A DNA stretch of 63,697 bases from Acidimicrobiia bacterium (GTDB taxonomy: Bacteria > Actinomycetota > Acidimicrobiia > IMCC26256 > PALSA-555). Under the pieces are notes generated by a model that saw only the letters and a list, made by a program, of their open reading frames with translations, made no database searches and was not told the origin of the DNA. Of the stretch, positions 25,532-34,712 are shown one piece after another. The number at the start of each line of letters is the position of its first letter. Position 1 is the stretch's first letter. The position numbers and the translations under genes are program-made. The stretch is taken from contig JBBECS010000053.1 of assembly GCA_040881685.1 (NCBI GenBank), positions 91,217 to 154,913 on the forward strand, given 5' to 3'.

Positions 25532-25554
25532 AGAGTAACCCCGGCCGGTACGAT
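25532..25554. promoter_or_regulatory. Divergent leaderless promoters, propeller gene and ilvD
   Basis: On the minus strand TACTCT (25537-25532) is 6 nt from the propeller GTG. On the plus strand TACGAT (25549-25554) is 7 nt from the ilvD ATG. Neither spacing leaves room for a ribosome binding site. Confidence 0.5.
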
Positions 25555-25561
25555 CCCCTCC

Positions 25562-27241
25562 ATGGCCGACATCAAGCCCCGTAGCCGTGATGTGACCGAC
25601 GGAATCGAGACGGCCGGTTCGCGCGCCATGCTGCGCGCGGTCGGCATGACCGACGACGACTGGGGGAAGGCACAAGTCGGCGTCGCCTCCAGCTGGAACG
25701 AGGTCACGCCCTGCAACATGGCGCTGGACCGGCTGGCGAAGAAGGCCAAGGACGGCGTGCGCGAGGCGGGCGGGTTCCCGCTCGAGTTCGTGACGATCGC
25801 GATCAGCGACGGGATCTCGATGGGGCACGAGGGCATGCGCGGATCGCTCCCGTCGCGCGAGATCATCGCCGACTCGGTGGAGTGCGTGATGCACTCGGAG
25901 CGTCTCGACGCGCTGGTCACGTTCGCCGGGTGCGACAAGAGCCTGCCCGGCATGCTCATGGCCGCGGCCCGCCTCAACCTCCCCTCGGTCTTCTTGTACG
26001 GCGGCACGATCCTGCCGGGCCAGCACAAGGATCGGGAGATCTCCGTCGTGGACGTGTTCGAAGGCATCGGCGCGTGCGCCGCCGGCACGCTCTCGGAGAA
26101 CGAGCTCGGCGAGATCGAGATGGCCGCGTGCCCGACGATCGGCTCCTGCGCCGGGATGTTCACCGCCAACACGATGGCGGCGGCCGCCGAAGCGCTCGGC
26201 ATGTCATTGCCCGGAAGCTCGGCCGCGCCCGCGGTCGACGGTCGGCGCGACGACTTCGCGTTCGAGAGCGGACGCGCGGTCATGGGTCTGCTCGAGGCGG
26301 GGATCCGGCCGCGCCAGATCCTCACGAAGGAGGCGTTCGAGAACGCCATCGCCATCGGCATGGCGCTCGGCGGCTCCACGAACCTCGTGCTGCACCTTCT
26401 CGCGATCGCCTTCGAGGCAGGGGTGGAGCTCGAGCTCGACGACTTCAACCGGGTGGGGGCCAGGGTCCCGCACATCGCTGACATGAAGCCGCACGGCAAG
26501 TACCACATGACCGACCTCGACCGAGTGGGGGGCGTGCAGGTCGTGTTGCGCGAGCTGCTCGATGCCGGCTTGCTCCATGGAGACTGCCTGACGGTCACCG
26601 GCCGGACGATGGCCGAGAACCTCGCGGCGCTCGATCCTGCCGCGCCCGACGGCGAGGTCGTGCACCCGTTGTCGGCACCGATCCACACCCACGGTGGGAT
26701 CGCGATCCTCACCGGCTCGCTCGCGCCGAAGGGCAGCGTGGTGAAGGTGGCCGGGCTGGATGCGCTCAGATTTGAAGGACGCGCCCGCGTGTTCGACGGC
26801 GAAGACCTTGCGATGGAGGCCGTCCTCGCCCGCAAGATCGAGGCGGGCGACATCGTGGTGATCCGCTACGAGGGCCCGAAGGGTGGGCCCGGCATGCGGG
26901 AGATGCTCGCCATCACCGGCGCGATGAAAGGTGTCGGCCGCGGTGCCGACGCTGCGCTCGTGACCGACGGTCGCTTCTCTGGCGGCACGCACGGCTTCTG
27001 CGTGGGGCACGTTGCGCCTGAGACCGTCGACGGTGGCCCGATCGCGTTCGTCGCAGAAGGCGACCGCATCGTGATCGACGCCGAGAAGCACACGATCGAC
27101 CTCATGGTCGACGACGCCACGATCGCGAAGCGACGCGCCGACTGGAAGCCGATGGAGCCGCGCTACACGAGTGGCTTCCTCGCCAAGTACGCGCGCCTGG
27201 CGCAGGGCGCCGAGACAGGCGCGATCACGAACGTCTTCTAG
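25562..27241 (+). CDS. ilvD: Dihydroxy-acid dehydratase
   Basis: A 559-residue Fe-S dehydratase that forms the 2-keto acids for valine and isoleucine. Cluster-ligand regions are [24 protein letters not shown] and [38 protein letters not shown] and [19 protein letters not shown] (both shown within the family limits) are diagnostic. The catalytic serine region near the C-terminus is intact. The gene is not linked directly to ilvBNC, which begins 3.7 kb downstream, but shares its orientation. The ATG follows TACGAT by 7 nt. Confidence 0.96.
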
Positions 27242-28070: not shown

Positions 28071-29378
28071 TCAGGCCAAGGCGGTGAGCGTGGGGGCGAT
28101 CGGAGCGCTGTGGCCGTCGAGGCAGATGCGGTCGCGTCCGGCGTTCTTCGCGGCGAAGAGCGCCTTGTCGGCCCGCTGGACCAGATCTTCGAAGTCGCTG
28201 GCGTCGGCGGAGTGCGCGATGCCGAAGCTGCACGTGAACGACGCAGCGTCGCCGCCGCCTGTGCTCTTCGCCAAGGCATCACGCACGCGCTCGACGACCT
28301 CGACCGCCTCGGGCACGTCGAGGCCAGGCAGCACGATCGCGAACTCCTCGCCGCCGTAGCGACACGCCAAGTCTTCGCCCCGAAGCTCCGTGCGCAGCGT
28401 CTCGGCGAACACCCGAAGTGCCCGGTCGCCGGCCTCGTGGCCGCGCGCGTCGTTGAGGGTCTTGAAGTGATCGAGATCGGCCATGACGAACGCGACATCC
28501 GTCCGTGCGGCGCGCAGCTGCCGCACCCGGTTCTCGAGGCTGCGGCGGTTGATCAACCCGGTGAGCCCGTCGGTCGACGCCTGCACCTGGGTCTCGGCCA
28601 TCACGCGCAGCATGCCCAGCCGGTTGCCGGACTGGTTTGCCACCGACTGGAGCGCGGCGACCTCCTGTTCGGCGAGTGGCTCGTCGACCGGTCCGACCGT
28701 GTGCATCACGCCGACCGTGCGGCCCATGATCGAGACAGGGATGCACACGCCCGAGCAGCGCCCGCGGTCGCGGCCGCGGAGCAGCGGGCACGCATCGAGA
28801 TCCTCGCTGTCACTGAAGACTTGCGTCTGTGCACGTCGCGCCGCAACGCACTCGTCGGGCGAGCTGACGCCGCAGCCGGGCGCATCTTCATGCGACGACA
28901 CGACGACGCGGTCGAGGTGGGCATGGCTGTTGTCGGCGAGGAGCAGCTCGATCGGCCGTTCACCGACGACGTCACGCATGGCGCGGTCGATGACATCGAA
29001 CGCAGCGACCTCGTCGTCGGCCATCTCGAGTGCACGTGCAAGACGGCTGCTGAACTCGCGGCGGCGGGCGTCGGTCTCCATCACGCGCTCGCGCACGACG
29101 GTCTCGACGCTCATCAGGTTGCCGCGTCGCCTCGTCACGATTGCGACGACCGCGAGCATCGGCAGCCCGACCAAGGTCCCGGCTACCCCAGTCGCGAGCG
29201 CCAACACCGGCACTCCGGCGTCCGGGAGGGCTGCGCTCGCGATGGCGCCACCACCCAGCGACGCGATCGCCATGATCACCGCAAGCGCCGGGACGGCACC
29301 CTTGATGCCTCGGCGCGTCAGCTCCTCGGCGTTCGCGCGGTCTTCGGCCGTAGCCAGTGCGTCGTATTTGATGCTCAT
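28071..29378 (-). CDS. Membrane-anchored GAF-like/GGDEF diguanylate cyclase (tandem copy 2)
   Basis: A 435-residue protein with two N-terminal membrane helices (AVPALAVIMAIASLGGGAIA and VLALATGVAGTLVGLPMLAV). A cysteine-rich GAF-like sensor (about residues 125-255) follows, with DNSHAHLDRVVV, CPLLRGRDRGRCSGVC and PVSIMGRTVGV. The C-terminal GGDEF domain has GGEEF and the inhibitory RGED five residues before it, so it should be an active, product-inhibited diguanylate cyclase. It is a paralogue of the gene just upstream (stop-to-start gap 5 nt), clearly from a tandem duplication. The four or more conserved cysteines suggest redox or metal sensing. Confidence 0.9.
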   Translation of the reverse strand: MSIKYDALATAEDRANAEELTRRGIKGAVPALAVIMAIASLGGGAIASAALPDAGVPVLALATGVAGTLVGLPMLAVVAIVTRRRGNLMSVETVVRERVMETDARRREFSSRLARALEMADDEVAAFDVIDRAMRDVVGERPIELLLADNSHAHLDRVVVSSHEDAPGCGVSSPDECVAARRAQTQVFSDSEDLDACPLLRGRDRGRCSGVCIPVSIMGRTVGVMHTVGPVDEPLAEQEVAALQSVANQSGNRLGMLRVMAETQVQASTDGLTGLINRRSLENRVRQLRAARTDVAFVMADLDHFKTLNDARGHEAGDRALRVFAETLRTELRGEDLACRYGGEEFAIVLPGLDVPEAVEVVERVRDALAKSTGGGDAASFTCSFGIAHSADASDFEDLVQRADKALFAAKNAGRDRICLDGHSAPIAPTLTALA

Positions 29379-29383
29379 GGCGT

Positions 29384-30697
29384 TCAGCCCAGCGCGGTGA
29401 GCGTGTGGGTGATCGGCGTGGCGTGGCCGTCGATGCAGGTGCGGTCGCGGCCGGCGTCCTTGGCGGCGAAGAGCGCACGGTCCGCGCGTTCCACGACGTC
29501 CTTGAGGTCGGCGGCATCACGAGAGTGCGCGATCCCGAAGCTCACGGTGAACGTCGGGGCGTCACCCCTGCCCGTTGCGTTGGCGAGCGCCAGCCGGATC
29601 CGTTCCACGACCTCGATGGCGTCGTGGGTCTCGGCATGGGGAAGCGCGAATGCGAACTCCTCACCGCCGTAGCGACACGCGAGGTCGTCGGCGCGCAGCT
29701 CTCGCTTCACGGTGTCGGCGAAGATCCGAAGCGCTCGGTCACCGGTCTCGTGCCCGTGCGAGTCGTTCAGCGACTTGAAGTGGTCGAGGTCGGCCATCAC
29801 GAAGGTGAACTCGACACTGTCGTTGCCGAGGTGGCGGAGGCGGTTCTCGAGCGTCCGGCGGTTGATCAGCCCGGTCAGGCCGTCGGTCGCGGCCTGTACG
29901 TGCGTCTCCGCCATGATGCGGAGCATCCCGAGACGGTTGCCGGCGTAGTTGGCGAGCGTCTGCAGCGAGTGCACCGCGCTCTCTTCGAGCGGCCTCTCGG
30001 CCTCGCCCACGGCGTGGACGACGCCCACGGTGCGACCCATGATCGAGACGGGCAAGCACACAGCTGAGCAACGGCCTTGCGCGCGTCCACGCAGCATCGG
30101 GCACGCGTCGAGGTCTTCGCTGTCGTTGAAAACTTGCACCTGCGCGCGGCGGGCGGCGACGCAGTCGTCGGGCGAGGCGACCGGGCATCCCGGCTCGCTG
30201 GTGCCTTCCGGAAGGGACACGACGACGCGGTCGAGGTGCGCGTGGCTGTTGTCGGCGAGGAGGAGCTCCACGGGAGCGCTCGGCGCGATGTCGTGCATCG
30301 CCCGCTCGACGATGTCGAACGCGGAGGGCTCGTCGTCAGACATCTCCAGCGCGCGACCGAGACGAGTCTCGAAATCGCGCCGGTGGGCGTCAGCTCGCAT
30401 CACGCGCTCCTGCGCGGCGTTCTGCGCACCGGCGTGCATGCCCTTGGCCTTGGCCATGCGGGAGATCAGGAAGAGCAGTGGGATCGCGAACGTCAACGCG
30501 AAAGCCGCGGTGACGAGGGCGCCGAGGAAGCCTTCGAGCGACGGGAAGATCAGCTGCGCGAGGCCGGCACCGATCAGGTTGGTGAGCCCGACCATGATGA
30601 AGCCGCCCACGCCGGTGCCACGGGAGGCATTCATGACGTCTTCGCGCGCGGCCGCCCGGTCGGCGTCCGTGATCACGATGTCCTGGTGCTCTCCCAC
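29384..30697 (-). CDS. Membrane-anchored GAF-like/GGDEF diguanylate cyclase (tandem copy 1)
   Basis: A 437-residue paralogue of the following gene with the same layout: two membrane helices (GTGVGGFIMVGLTNLIGAGL and LVTAAFALTFAIPLLFLIS), then a GAF-like region with DNSHAHLDRVVV, CPMLRGRAQGRCSAVC and PVSIMGRTVGV, then GGDEF. The active site is GGEEF and the inhibitory site RADD. The membrane segments have diverged much more than the sensor and GGDEF parts. The start is GTG at 30697 with GAGGTGAGG upstream. It is divergent from the ilvBNC leader region. Confidence 0.9.
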   Translation of the reverse strand: MGEHQDIVITDADRAAAREDVMNASRGTGVGGFIMVGLTNLIGAGLAQLIFPSLEGFLGALVTAAFALTFAIPLLFLISRMAKAKGMHAGAQNAAQERVMRADAHRRDFETRLGRALEMSDDEPSAFDIVERAMHDIAPSAPVELLLADNSHAHLDRVVVSLPEGTSEPGCPVASPDDCVAARRAQVQVFNDSEDLDACPMLRGRAQGRCSAVCLPVSIMGRTVGVVHAVGEAERPLEESAVHSLQTLANYAGNRLGMLRIMAETHVQAATDGLTGLINRRTLENRLRHLGNDSVEFTFVMADLDHFKSLNDSHGHETGDRALRIFADTVKRELRADDLACRYGGEEFAFALPHAETHDAIEVVERIRLALANATGRGDAPTFTVSFGIAHSRDAADLKDVVERADRALFAAKDAGRDRTCIDGHATPITHTLTALG

Positions 30698-30766: not shown

Positions 30767-30844
30767 TCAGGGCACGGGCGGAGACCCCGTCCAGGGCCCA
30801 AACCCCTTGCCTTCCGGTGAGGACTCGGGCAAACTGATCGTCCG

Positions 30845-30880
30845 ATGCACATCGCCGACCTCCTCGTAGTCGTTATGTAG
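30845..30880 (+). CDS. ilvB leader peptide MHIADLLVVVM
   Basis: An 11-codon frame, ATG at 30845 to TAG at 30878-30880, encodes MHIADLLVVVM. Six of its eleven residues are Ile, Leu or Val, including Leu-Leu-Val-Val-Val in a row. It ends 109 nt before ilvB, with its stop codon overlapping the first arm of a hairpin and a terminator-like hairpin beyond that. This is the arrangement of branched-chain amino-acid attenuators, and the peptide resembles in kind the ilvBNC leader known from Corynebacterium. A weak TTGCCT-17 nt-CAAACT promoter would place transcription start within a few bases of the ATG. Confidence 0.72.
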   Translation: MHIADLLVVVM

Positions 30881-30938
30881 CGCACGCCCGCCTCCACGCG
30901 CGCGTGCGCTCTCCCGCCCCTTGCCACAGCGAGGGGCG
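30879..30938 (+). terminator. Attenuator-like hairpins before ilvB
   Basis: Hairpin 1 pairs AGCGCACGC (30879-30887) with GCGTGCGCT (30902-30910), overlapping the leader stop codon. Hairpin 2 pairs CGCCCCT (30915-30921) with AGGGGCG (30932-30938) and is followed by TTTCAT. Hairpin 2 is the candidate terminator. I could not establish the competing antiterminator fold by eye. Confidence 0.6.
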
Positions 30939-30989
30939 TTTCATATCCCGACCCGTTTCGAGCGACCCAACCGAGAAAGCGGACCCGAG

Positions 30990-32729
30990 ATGAAGCTCAC
31001 CGGTGCCCAAGCCCTCATCAAGAGCCTCGAGCACGAGGCCGTGGAGGTCATGTTCGGCCTCCCGGGTGGGGCGATCCTGCCGGTGTACGACCCCCTGATC
31101 GACTCGTCGATCCGCCACATCCTCGTGCGCCACGAGCAAGGGGCTGGCCACATGGCCGAGGGGTACGCGCACGCGACCGGGCGCCCGGGCGTTGCGATGG
31201 TGACGAGCGGGCCGGCGGCCACGAACATCGTGACGCCGCTGTGCGACGCCTACATGGACTCGATCCCGATCGTGGTGATCACCGGCCAGGTGCCCTACGC
31301 GAACATCGGAACCGACGCGTTCCAGGAATGCGACACCGTCGGCATCACGATGCCGGTCACGAAGCACAACTGGCTCGTCACGGATGCGCAGGACATCCCG
31401 CGCATCGTGCGTGAAGCGTTCCACGTGGCGACGACCGGCCGACCTGGTCCGGTGCTCGTGGACGTGCCGAAGGACATCGCGAACCAGCAGATGGATTGGT
31501 ACTGGCCCGACGGCGTGGACATGCCCGGGTACAAGCCGACGACGAAGGGTCACGCGAAGCAGATCAAGGACGCGGCGCGGCTCATGTCACAGTCACGCCG
31601 TCCGGTGATCTACGCGGGTGGCGGGATCCTCAAGGCGCGCGCCGCGGAAGTGCTGCGTGAGCTCGTCGAGCTCACCGGCTTTCCGGTGGTGACCACACTC
31701 ATGGCGCGGGGTTCGTTCCCCGACGACCACGAGCTGTGTCTCGGGATGCCCGGCATGCACGGCAACTACACGGCGGTCACGTCCATGCAACAGGCCGACC
31801 TGCTCGTTGCGCTGGGGTCGCGCTTCGACGACCGCGTGACCGGCAAGGTCGGTGCCTTCGCGCCCGAAGCCAAGATCATCCATGTGGACATCGACCCGGC
31901 CGAGCTGGGCAAGGTGCGTCAGCCCGACGTCCCGATCGTGGGCGACTGCCGACAGGTCATCGAGGAGCTGGTGAAAGCGGTGTTGGCCGACAAGGCCAAG
32001 CACTCCGGCGACGACACCCAGTGGCCGTCGCTCGCTGAGTGGCAGACGCGACTTCGTGATTGGCAGCGCGACTTCCCGCTCGTCTACGACCAGCAGCCCG
32101 ACGGTCCGCTCAAGCCGCAGTTCTGCGTGGACCAGCTGCGCGACCACACGCCCGACGACACGATCGTGGTTGCCGGCGTGGGCCAACACCAGATGTGGAC
32201 GAGCCAGCGCTGGAAGTTCAACCACCCGTACACGTTCGTGAACTCCGGTGGCCTCGGCACGATGGGCTTCGCCGTGCCGGCTGCCATCGGGGCCAAGGTC
32301 GGGATGCCCGATCGCATGGTGTGGGCCGTGGACGGCGACGGCTGCTTCCAGATGACCGCGCAAGAGCTCGTGACCGCGAGCTCAGAGCGGATCCCCGTGA
32401 AGATCGCCATCCTCAACAACGCGTATCTCGGGATGGTGCGGCAGTGGCAGGAGCTCTTCTACGAGGAGCGCTACAGCGAGGTGTACCTGTCGCCGGACCT
32501 TCCTGACTACGTGATGTGGGCCGAGGCGATGGGCTGCGTGGGAATCCGCGTGGACTCGCCCGAGGAAGTGGAACCGGCGATCGACAAGGCTAATGACATC
32601 GACGATCGTCCGGTGGTCATCGACTTCCGTACCGACTACCGGGAGAAGGTGTACCCGATGGTCCCGGCCGGTCACTCGAACGACGAGATCATCCTCGATC
32701 CCGCGCACGATACGTACGGGGAGCGCTGA
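30990..32729 (+). CDS. ilvB: Acetolactate synthase large subunit
   Basis: A 579-residue ThDP enzyme and the first shared step of valine, leucine and isoleucine synthesis. The catalytic glutamate is in LVRHEQGAGHMAEGYA and VTSGPAATN follows. FAD/CoA-fold central domain sequence and the ThDP motif GDGCFQMTAQELVTA...NN complete it. The ATG at 30990 starts MKLTGAQALIKSLEHEAVE, as is usual. ilvN starts 2 nt after the stop. Expression is probably controlled by the leader peptide and hairpins upstream. Confidence 0.97.
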   Translation: MKLTGAQALIKSLEHEAVEVMFGLPGGAILPVYDPLIDSSIRHILVRHEQGAGHMAEGYAHATGRPGVAMVTSGPAATNIVTPLCDAYMDSIPIVVITGQVPYANIGTDAFQECDTVGITMPVTKHNWLVTDAQDIPRIVREAFHVATTGRPGPVLVDVPKDIANQQMDWYWPDGVDMPGYKPTTKGHAKQIKDAARLMSQSRRPVIYAGGGILKARAAEVLRELVELTGFPVVTTLMARGSFPDDHELCLGMPGMHGNYTAVTSMQQADLLVALGSRFDDRVTGKVGAFAPEAKIIHVDIDPAELGKVRQPDVPIVGDCRQVIEELVKAVLADKAKHSGDDTQWPSLAEWQTRLRDWQRDFPLVYDQQPDGPLKPQFCVDQLRDHTPDDTIVVAGVGQHQMWTSQRWKFNHPYTFVNSGGLGTMGFAVPAAIGAKVGMPDRMVWAVDGDGCFQMTAQELVTASSERIPVKIAILNNAYLGMVRQWQELFYEERYSEVYLSPDLPDYVMWAEAMGCVGIRVDSPEEVEPAIDKANDIDDRPVVIDFRTDYREKVYPMVPAGHSNDEIILDPAHDTYGER

Positions 32730-32731
32730 CC

Positions 32732-33271
32732 GTGTCGAACCTTGGTGACATCCAACACCACATCTACTCGATCACGGTCGAGAACAAGTTCGGCGTGCTG
32801 AGTCGCGTTGCCGGCTTGTTCGCGCGGCGCGGCTTCAACATCGTCTCGCTGGCGGTGAGCCCGACCGAGGACGAGCGCTTCAGCCGCATGACGATCGTCG
32901 TGGACGCGGCGTCCGCGCCGCTTGAGCAGGTCACGAAACAGCTCCACAAGCTCATCCCCGTGATCAAGGTCATGGAGCTGCACCCGGACGACGCGGTCGA
33001 ACGCGAGTTGATGCTCGTGACGGTGAAGGCCGAGTCGGAGACGCGCTCGCAGATCACCGAGCTGGCGTCGATTTTCGAGGCTCGCATCGAGGACGTCGGC
33101 TTCGAGTCGATCACGATTCAGGCCGCAGGGCGGCCAGACAAGCTCGACGCGATGACCGATCTGCTCACGCCGTTCGGCATCGTCGAGCTCCAGCGGACCG
33201 GCCGCATCGCGCTCCCCAAGCTCTCCCGGCGACCCCAGCGCTTGCGGGCCGTCAAGACCCGCGGGGTGTGA
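32732..33271 (+). CDS. ilvN: Acetolactate synthase small (regulatory) subunit
   Basis: A 179-residue regulatory subunit with an N-terminal ACT domain (HHIYSITVENKFGVLSRVAG, then FNIVSLAVSPTED) and a C-terminal ALS_ss_C domain (KAESETRSQITELASIFEAR). It confers valine feedback on IlvB. The GTG start lies 2 nt after the ilvB stop. Unlike the usual tight ilvBNC operon, 412 nt separate it from ilvC, and that gap holds a gene fragment. Confidence 0.96.
   Translation: MSNLGDIQHHIYSITVENKFGVLSRVAGLFARRGFNIVSLAVSPTEDERFSRMTIVVDAASAPLEQVTKQLHKLIPVIKVMELHPDDAVERELMLVTVKAESETRSQITELASIFEARIEDVGFESITIQAAGRPDKLDAMTDLLTPFGIVELQRTGRIALPKLSRRPQRLRAVKTRGV

Positions 33272-33343: not shown

Positions 33344-34712
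<1,369 letters not shown>

Follow-up and report, generated by a model that had tools for sequence, protein, structure and literature searches.

Control of ilvB by leader-peptide attenuation is already known, with experimental evidence in Corynebacterium glutamicum and Mycobacterium tuberculosis and predictions in Streptomyces and Mycobacterium. The Corynebacterium ilvB-II motif and the 'fast' attenuator of C. glutamicum ilvBNC combine an upstream open reading frame (uORF) rich in branched-chain residues with two hairpins, P1 and P2, and a U tail (PMC10272879, PMC11857589). Translation of the C. glutamicum leader starts 1 nt from the transcript start (PMC10272879, PMC11857589), and CUU and GUA are its conserved control codons (PMC11857589). 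In M. tuberculosis, induction of ilvB1 is lost when LVVI in its leader is replaced by AAAA, and masking of the antiterminator by a ribosome at the stop codon has been proposed (PMC13236596). Streptomyces lividans encodes the leaderless branched-chain leader peptides ilvL, leuL1 and leuL2 before ilvBHC, leuA and leuS (PMC8079986).

Here, we analysed a window of 63,697 nucleotides from an Acidimicrobiia bacterium. Its plus strand carries an operon of ilvB (acetolactate synthase large subunit, 30990-32729; NCBIfam NF005860, 923.9 bits at a cut-off of 881), ilvN (acetolactate synthase small subunit, 32732-33271) and ilvC (ketol-acid reductoisomerase, 33684-34712), the latter two being ORFs named from sequence and position. 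The ilvB gene is 92-95% identical to its counterparts in metagenome genomes labelled Acidimicrobiia or Actinomycetota. The gene upstream of the leader diverges from ilvB, its ORFs being on the minus strand. At 28071-30697, the minus strand carries a tandem pair of related genes whose GGEEF motifs mark them, on the motif alone, as putative diguanylate cyclases; the pair runs divergently from ilvB. Elsewhere in the window, ilvD (ATG at 25563) has a TACGAT hexamer ending 7-8 nt before its start codon (25546-25563) and carries no attenuator; it looks leaderless and outside attenuator control. With high confidence, as judged from sequence, we predict that positions 30807-30946 in front of ilvB act as a leader-peptide transcription attenuator of ilvBNC.

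The leader ORF, MHIADLLVVVM, runs on the plus strand from an ATG at 30845 to a TAG at 30878-30880 (30845-30880) and is separated by 109 nt from the ilvB start codon, an ATG at 30990. Six of its 11 codons specify branched-chain residues, five of them in a row (CTC CTC GTA GTC GTT, Leu Leu Val Val Val; 30860-30874), which agrees with the description in an earlier note on this DNA. We collected 89 distinct ilvB upstream regions from relatives, 86 of which held enough sequence to be evaluated. A short Leu/Val/Ile ORF, mostly of 10-13 codons, was present in 84 of these 86 loci, so that conservation of the peptide is evident by a wide margin. The leaders end in forms such as LLVVVT, LLVVVM, LVLVT and VVIT directly before the stop codon; the frequent LVVVT ending may be compared with the uORFs rich in branched-chain residues and threonine before ilvB in the ilvB-OMG and Leptospira ilvB motifs (as described in PMC10272879). 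As our leader finder required richness in Ile, Leu and Val, this richness is partly selected for, while the choice among the three residues is not. Four contigs in the collection are titled Bifidobacterium breve; their ilvB genes and leaders group with Acidimicrobiia, and the titles look mislabelled.

The leaders depart from their own genes in codon choice. GTA accounts for 58% of 209 valine codons in the leaders versus 1% of 4555 in the ilvB genes that they precede (Fisher p about 1e-141). Its commonest position in ilvB leaders is codon -4 counted from the stop, which is also where the rare GTA of the window leader lies (30866-30868). In mate swaps between species, pairing of leader codons with other parts of the RNA was no better than with swapped partners, so the GUA constraint acts on decoding, with the rare codon as sensor. 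We also examined a pairing of leader codons with a terminator arm that had been spotted by eye (CUCCUCGU with GCGAGGGG); it was not favoured (mate-swap z +1.6 for the 3' arm and +2.8 for the 5' arm), and RNA pairing thus does not explain the GUA codon.

A scan with the standard sigma-70 consensus found no promoter at the window leader, and a -10 motif was instead learned from the alignment. An unsupervised EM search upstream of the leader starts returned CANA(A/C)T with a log-likelihood of 102, compared with 11-15 in shuffles, placed 6-10 nt 5' of the leader start codon in 63 of 78 loci. The corresponding hexamer of the window is CAAACT (30830-30835, plus strand), 9 nt before the leader ATG; a -35-like TTGCCT (30807-30812), read from the sequence, lies 17 nt before it, and the aligned upstream regions are TTG-rich at -38 to -36. 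Shine-Dalgarno-like 4-mers precede only 6 of 78 leader starts, where 9.7 are expected by chance, versus 58 of 78 ilvB starts. Leaderless leader peptides of Actinomycetota have their start codon at or beside the transcription start and no Shine-Dalgarno site; given the fixed -10 spacing and this scarcity, the transcription start is predicted at or next to the leader ATG, as has been reported in C. glutamicum and S. lividans. The leader ORF should therefore be leaderless or nearly so, which supports the possible -10 box and leaderless peptide suggested in the earlier note. Several ilvB leaders from outside the class share this design and follow AGGAG- or AGGA-like Shine-Dalgarno sequences; a leaderless start accordingly seems particular to the Acidimicrobiia version of the element.

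Two hairpins follow the ORF. P1 (30879-30910, plus strand) is a perfect 9-bp stem of AGCGCACGC (30879-30887) with GCGUGCGCU (30902-30910). The final A and G of the stop codon belong to it and are both paired, confirming the earlier observation that the stop overlaps the first arm of the hairpin. A linker of 4 nt (30911-30914) leads to P2 (30915-30938; arms 30915-30924 and 30929-30938), an intrinsic terminator stem of 10 bp including one G-U pair (CGCCCCUUGC/GCGAGGGGCG), and to the U-rich tail TTTCATAT (30939-30946). A second hairpin had been noted before as a 7-bp stem followed by TTT; the hairpin stands, and its length is revised accordingly. For the placement of P1, RNA was folded only up to P2; the leader plus 100 nt downstream gave multiloops. 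The window leader folded better than shuffled sequences (z -3.6 and -3.3). In a model of P1 and P2 on 78 aligned elements, 94.1% of cells were paired and 10 of 16 pairs had changed on both sides, and the covariation score was 0.309 versus 0.177 in shuffled alignments and at most 0.10 with slid partners; both hairpins therefore covary across related genomes. The third base of the stop codon takes part in this covariation. Its partner in P1 is C in 65 of 68 leaders with UAG and U in one, and with UGA or UAA the partner is U in 7 of 14. This pairing accounts for the excess of TAG among leader stops (70 of 84) over the ilvB genes of the same loci, 66 of 84 of which end in TGA.

To follow the element beyond ilvB, we built a covariance model from it and ran it on the 3.1-Mb genome and on 396 sampled genomes of the phylum. 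In the 3.1-Mb genome only two matches reached E<=1, one before ilvB (7.5e-16) and one on another contig before a leuB-ilvE-cimA operon, whose leader reads MAHQPVIVIS and whose CimA matches TIGR00977 with 675.9 bits. A third copy, missed by the covariance model, precedes leuA, where the leader MTKELRAAISTSLLLT and its stop codon are followed by P1 and P2. Matches occurred in 92 of the 396 sampled genomes. Among 97 inspected loci, 90 lie before ilvB (68), leuB (10), cimA (8) or leuA (4); five lie before isocitrate lyase and two have no resolved gene. The leuA, leuB and cimA copies share the two-hairpin layout and have unrelated stem sequences. Their geometry is constant: across 126 leaders of the four gene classes, the 5' end of P1 falls at stop +0 to +4 in 109, and P2 follows P1 after 0-6 nt in 125.

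The isocitrate lyase matches belong to one family of the phylum and are located around position 300. Their short ORFs end in FVGSA, FVAIA, FVGSH or similar before the stop and are Gly/Ala/Ser-like, not rich in branched-chain residues; the stop lies at a hairpin base, a terminator follows, and several of these leaders carry a palindrome like TGAACGNNCGTTCA near the start.

Additional leuA and cimA loci were gathered via the LeuA and CimA families, and the residues encoded by the last six codons of each leader were counted. The 19 leuA leaders contain 64 Leu and 4 Ile/Val, with Leu runs in all 19; the 17 cimA leaders contain 59 Ile and 4 Leu/Val, with Ile in all 17 (p 9e-30). The 10 leuB leaders hold 21 Ile and 13 Val, and the 84 ilvB leaders 140 Leu, 198 Val and 32 Ile. 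Judged from sequence, no other argument speaks as strongly for a leader that reads the supply of amino acids as this gene-matched choice of residue. In four reduced genomes of about 1.1 Mb, all from one family, leuA has no detectable leader element.

GC-rich DNA abounds in short ORFs and GC hairpins, and one could therefore suppose that the locus holds no regulatory leader at all, being a chance Leu/Val-rich frame next to an ordinary intergenic terminator. The conserved peptide, the GUA codon, the pairing of the stop codon, the promoter spacing and the gene-matched sensors contradict this, and as the upstream gene is divergent there would be no readthrough from upstream to terminate. The comparative data already refute such a chance arrangement at the sequence level, and we consider it exceedingly improbable. 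The whole architecture is far beyond chance and is conserved across Acidimicrobiia. It also carries two hallmarks of attenuators, namely a uORF rich in the amino acid produced (Leu/Val in the 84 ilvB leaders, Leu in 19 of 19 leuA and Ile in 17 of 17 cimA leaders) and an intrinsic terminator between uORF and gene. Two points count against the attenuator reading: the U tail of P2 is short (TTTCATAT), and in Streptomyces coelicolor, replacement of leader codons left ilvB regulation unchanged (reported in PMC1262725). Conservation of peptide, codons, hairpins and promoter nevertheless gives strong support to an attenuator with a leaderless leader ORF.

How such an attenuator might switch is a separate question. 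A third hallmark, a conserved antiterminator whose base pairing precludes the terminator, was found neither by mate swaps nor by thermodynamic folding. In the classical scheme, of the kind drawn for Corynebacterium ilvB-II, stalling of a ribosome at the Leu/Val codons releases the P1 loop or 3' arm, which then pairs with a terminator arm as an antiterminator; the ilvB-II model uses pairing between the P1 loop and the 3' side of P2 (PMC10272879). At first sight the window would allow it, the pairing of its P1 loop with the P2 3' arm being predicted at -14.7 kcal/mol versus -19.8 for P2 itself, and energies of -12 or better occur in 28 of 84 members. However, almost no such pairing exists in 10 of the 84, and the mean energy of -10.1 hardly differs from that of shuffled loops (-9.85, sd 0.24) or swapped partners (-9.98, sd 0.16). 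Mate swaps between species found only P1-5' with P1-3' (z -16.7) and P2-5' with P2-3' (z -11) to be coupled; the loop with the P2 3' arm gave z -0.8, and no other combination of parts was favoured. We therefore rejected the P1 loop with the P2 3' arm as antiterminator; its pairing follows from composition, with C-rich loops facing G-rich arms. The strand 2:3 antiterminator was likewise rejected, its pairing being weaker than chance. The mean probability of P2, P(P2), was at least 0.98 at every ribosome position tried (front at stop +0 to +15), and it was independent of the ribosome in the leuA, leuB and cimA leaders too. The earlier note had looked to an alternative 2:3 fold as a mark of the antiterminator; this fold was not found, and P2 is predicted wherever the ribosome stands. 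A classical attenuator of this kind is in our judgement rather unlikely. The layout is thus that of an attenuator whose switching step textbook alternative pairing does not explain.

We consider as a tentative candidate, at somewhat less than even probability, that P1 serves as a stop-codon-gated antiterminator. Counted from the first base of the P-site codon, the front of a ribosome usually lies about 15 nt downstream. Ribosomes would start on the nascent 5' AUG. With ample amino acids, the ribosome would reach the UAG, its front at about +12 would melt P1, P2 would form and transcription would stop. Under starvation, the ribosome would wait with its A site on the GUA at codon -4 or on neighbouring codons, its front would stand at the stop codon and P1 would form; the intact P1, 0-5 nt from P2, would keep the base of P2 from zipping in the exit channel of RNA polymerase, and ilvB would be transcribed. 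P1 would thereby report completion of the uORF, with its whole 5' arm melted once the stop codon is in the A site. In predicted foldings P1 and P2 form together without conflict, and the proposed exclusion rests on geometry. A rival to P1 as antiterminator is a weak or kinetic alternative pairing of the sort that thermodynamic models miss.

P1 might otherwise be a pausing or anti-antiterminator hairpin whose sole task is to keep RNA polymerase and ribosome in step, with read-through brought about by protein factors or ribosome-polymerase contacts instead of by RNA structure. It lies where a pause hairpin would be and is the sole conserved structure besides P2, and a pausing role has been proposed for hairpin H1 of C. 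glutamicum (PMC11857589). Left unexplained by a pause, however, are the stop codon kept within P1 in four gene classes and the abutment of P1 on P2, and we regard this role as quite improbable. If the P1-gated switch is true, absence of leader translation would leave the operon ON, the opposite of a classical trp-type attenuator. The overall explanation, a leaderless attenuator through which the supply of charged Leu- and Val-tRNA controls ilvBNC, appears probable.

Compared with the described systems, the element can be set beside M. tuberculosis ilvB1NC, which shares the uORF rich in branched-chain residues, GUA as regulatory codon, the terminator before ilvB and the order ilvB-N-C (PMC13236596). 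P1 as antiterminator would be in line with the logic proposed there. By its description, the M. tuberculosis leader is 166 nt long with two mutually exclusive folds, whereas P1 and P2 are separate hairpins here and copies also precede leuA, cimA and leuB. In Corynebacterium, most of P1 lies within the uORF of 15-17 amino acids, and the antiterminator has bases in common with P2; in contrast, the uORFs described here, of 10-18 amino acids, end at the base of P1 (109 of 126 leaders have P1 beginning at stop +0 to +4), and the P1 loop pairs with the 3' shoulder of P2 no more strongly than shuffled or swapped sequences do, the shared pairing not being conserved. The element is certain enough as an attenuator, and the translation-coupled attenuation like that of Corynebacterium ilvBNC, as the earlier note had put it, holds for function and not in detail, because neither the 2:3 nor the loop-arm pairing exceeds chance and the terminator is predicted at all ribosome positions. 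In S. lividans, leuL1 has no terminator, cimA and leuB copies are not reported and the peptides differ (MRTRILVLGKRVG; PMC8079986). Rfam 15, searched with all families including the ppGpp riboswitch, produced no match to the window at the gathering score, and the weak matches at the leader region included no ilvB family. In the open-access literature that we searched, no paper joins Acidimicrobiia with leader peptides and attenuation, and no cimA leader-peptide attenuator of this kind is reported. The lineage, the regulon and the layout were apparently undescribed before.

Very probably, then, a sensor gene and an RNA stop signal switch these genes on when valine, leucine or isoleucine runs short. 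Somewhat more speculatively, and well below an even chance, the copies may represent a class of attenuator that switches without alternative base pairing, in which the stop codon lies within the antiterminator strand and the intact hairpin blocks the adjoining terminator by contact, one modular design serving ilvB, leuB-ilvE-cimA, cimA and leuA throughout Acidimicrobiia. The leader codons report the product served, Leu before leuA, Ile before cimA and Val/Ile before leuB-ilvE-cimA, and so help to separate isopropylmalate synthases from citramalate synthases. For a class of mostly uncultured actinobacteria, this makes an amino-acid regulon readable.
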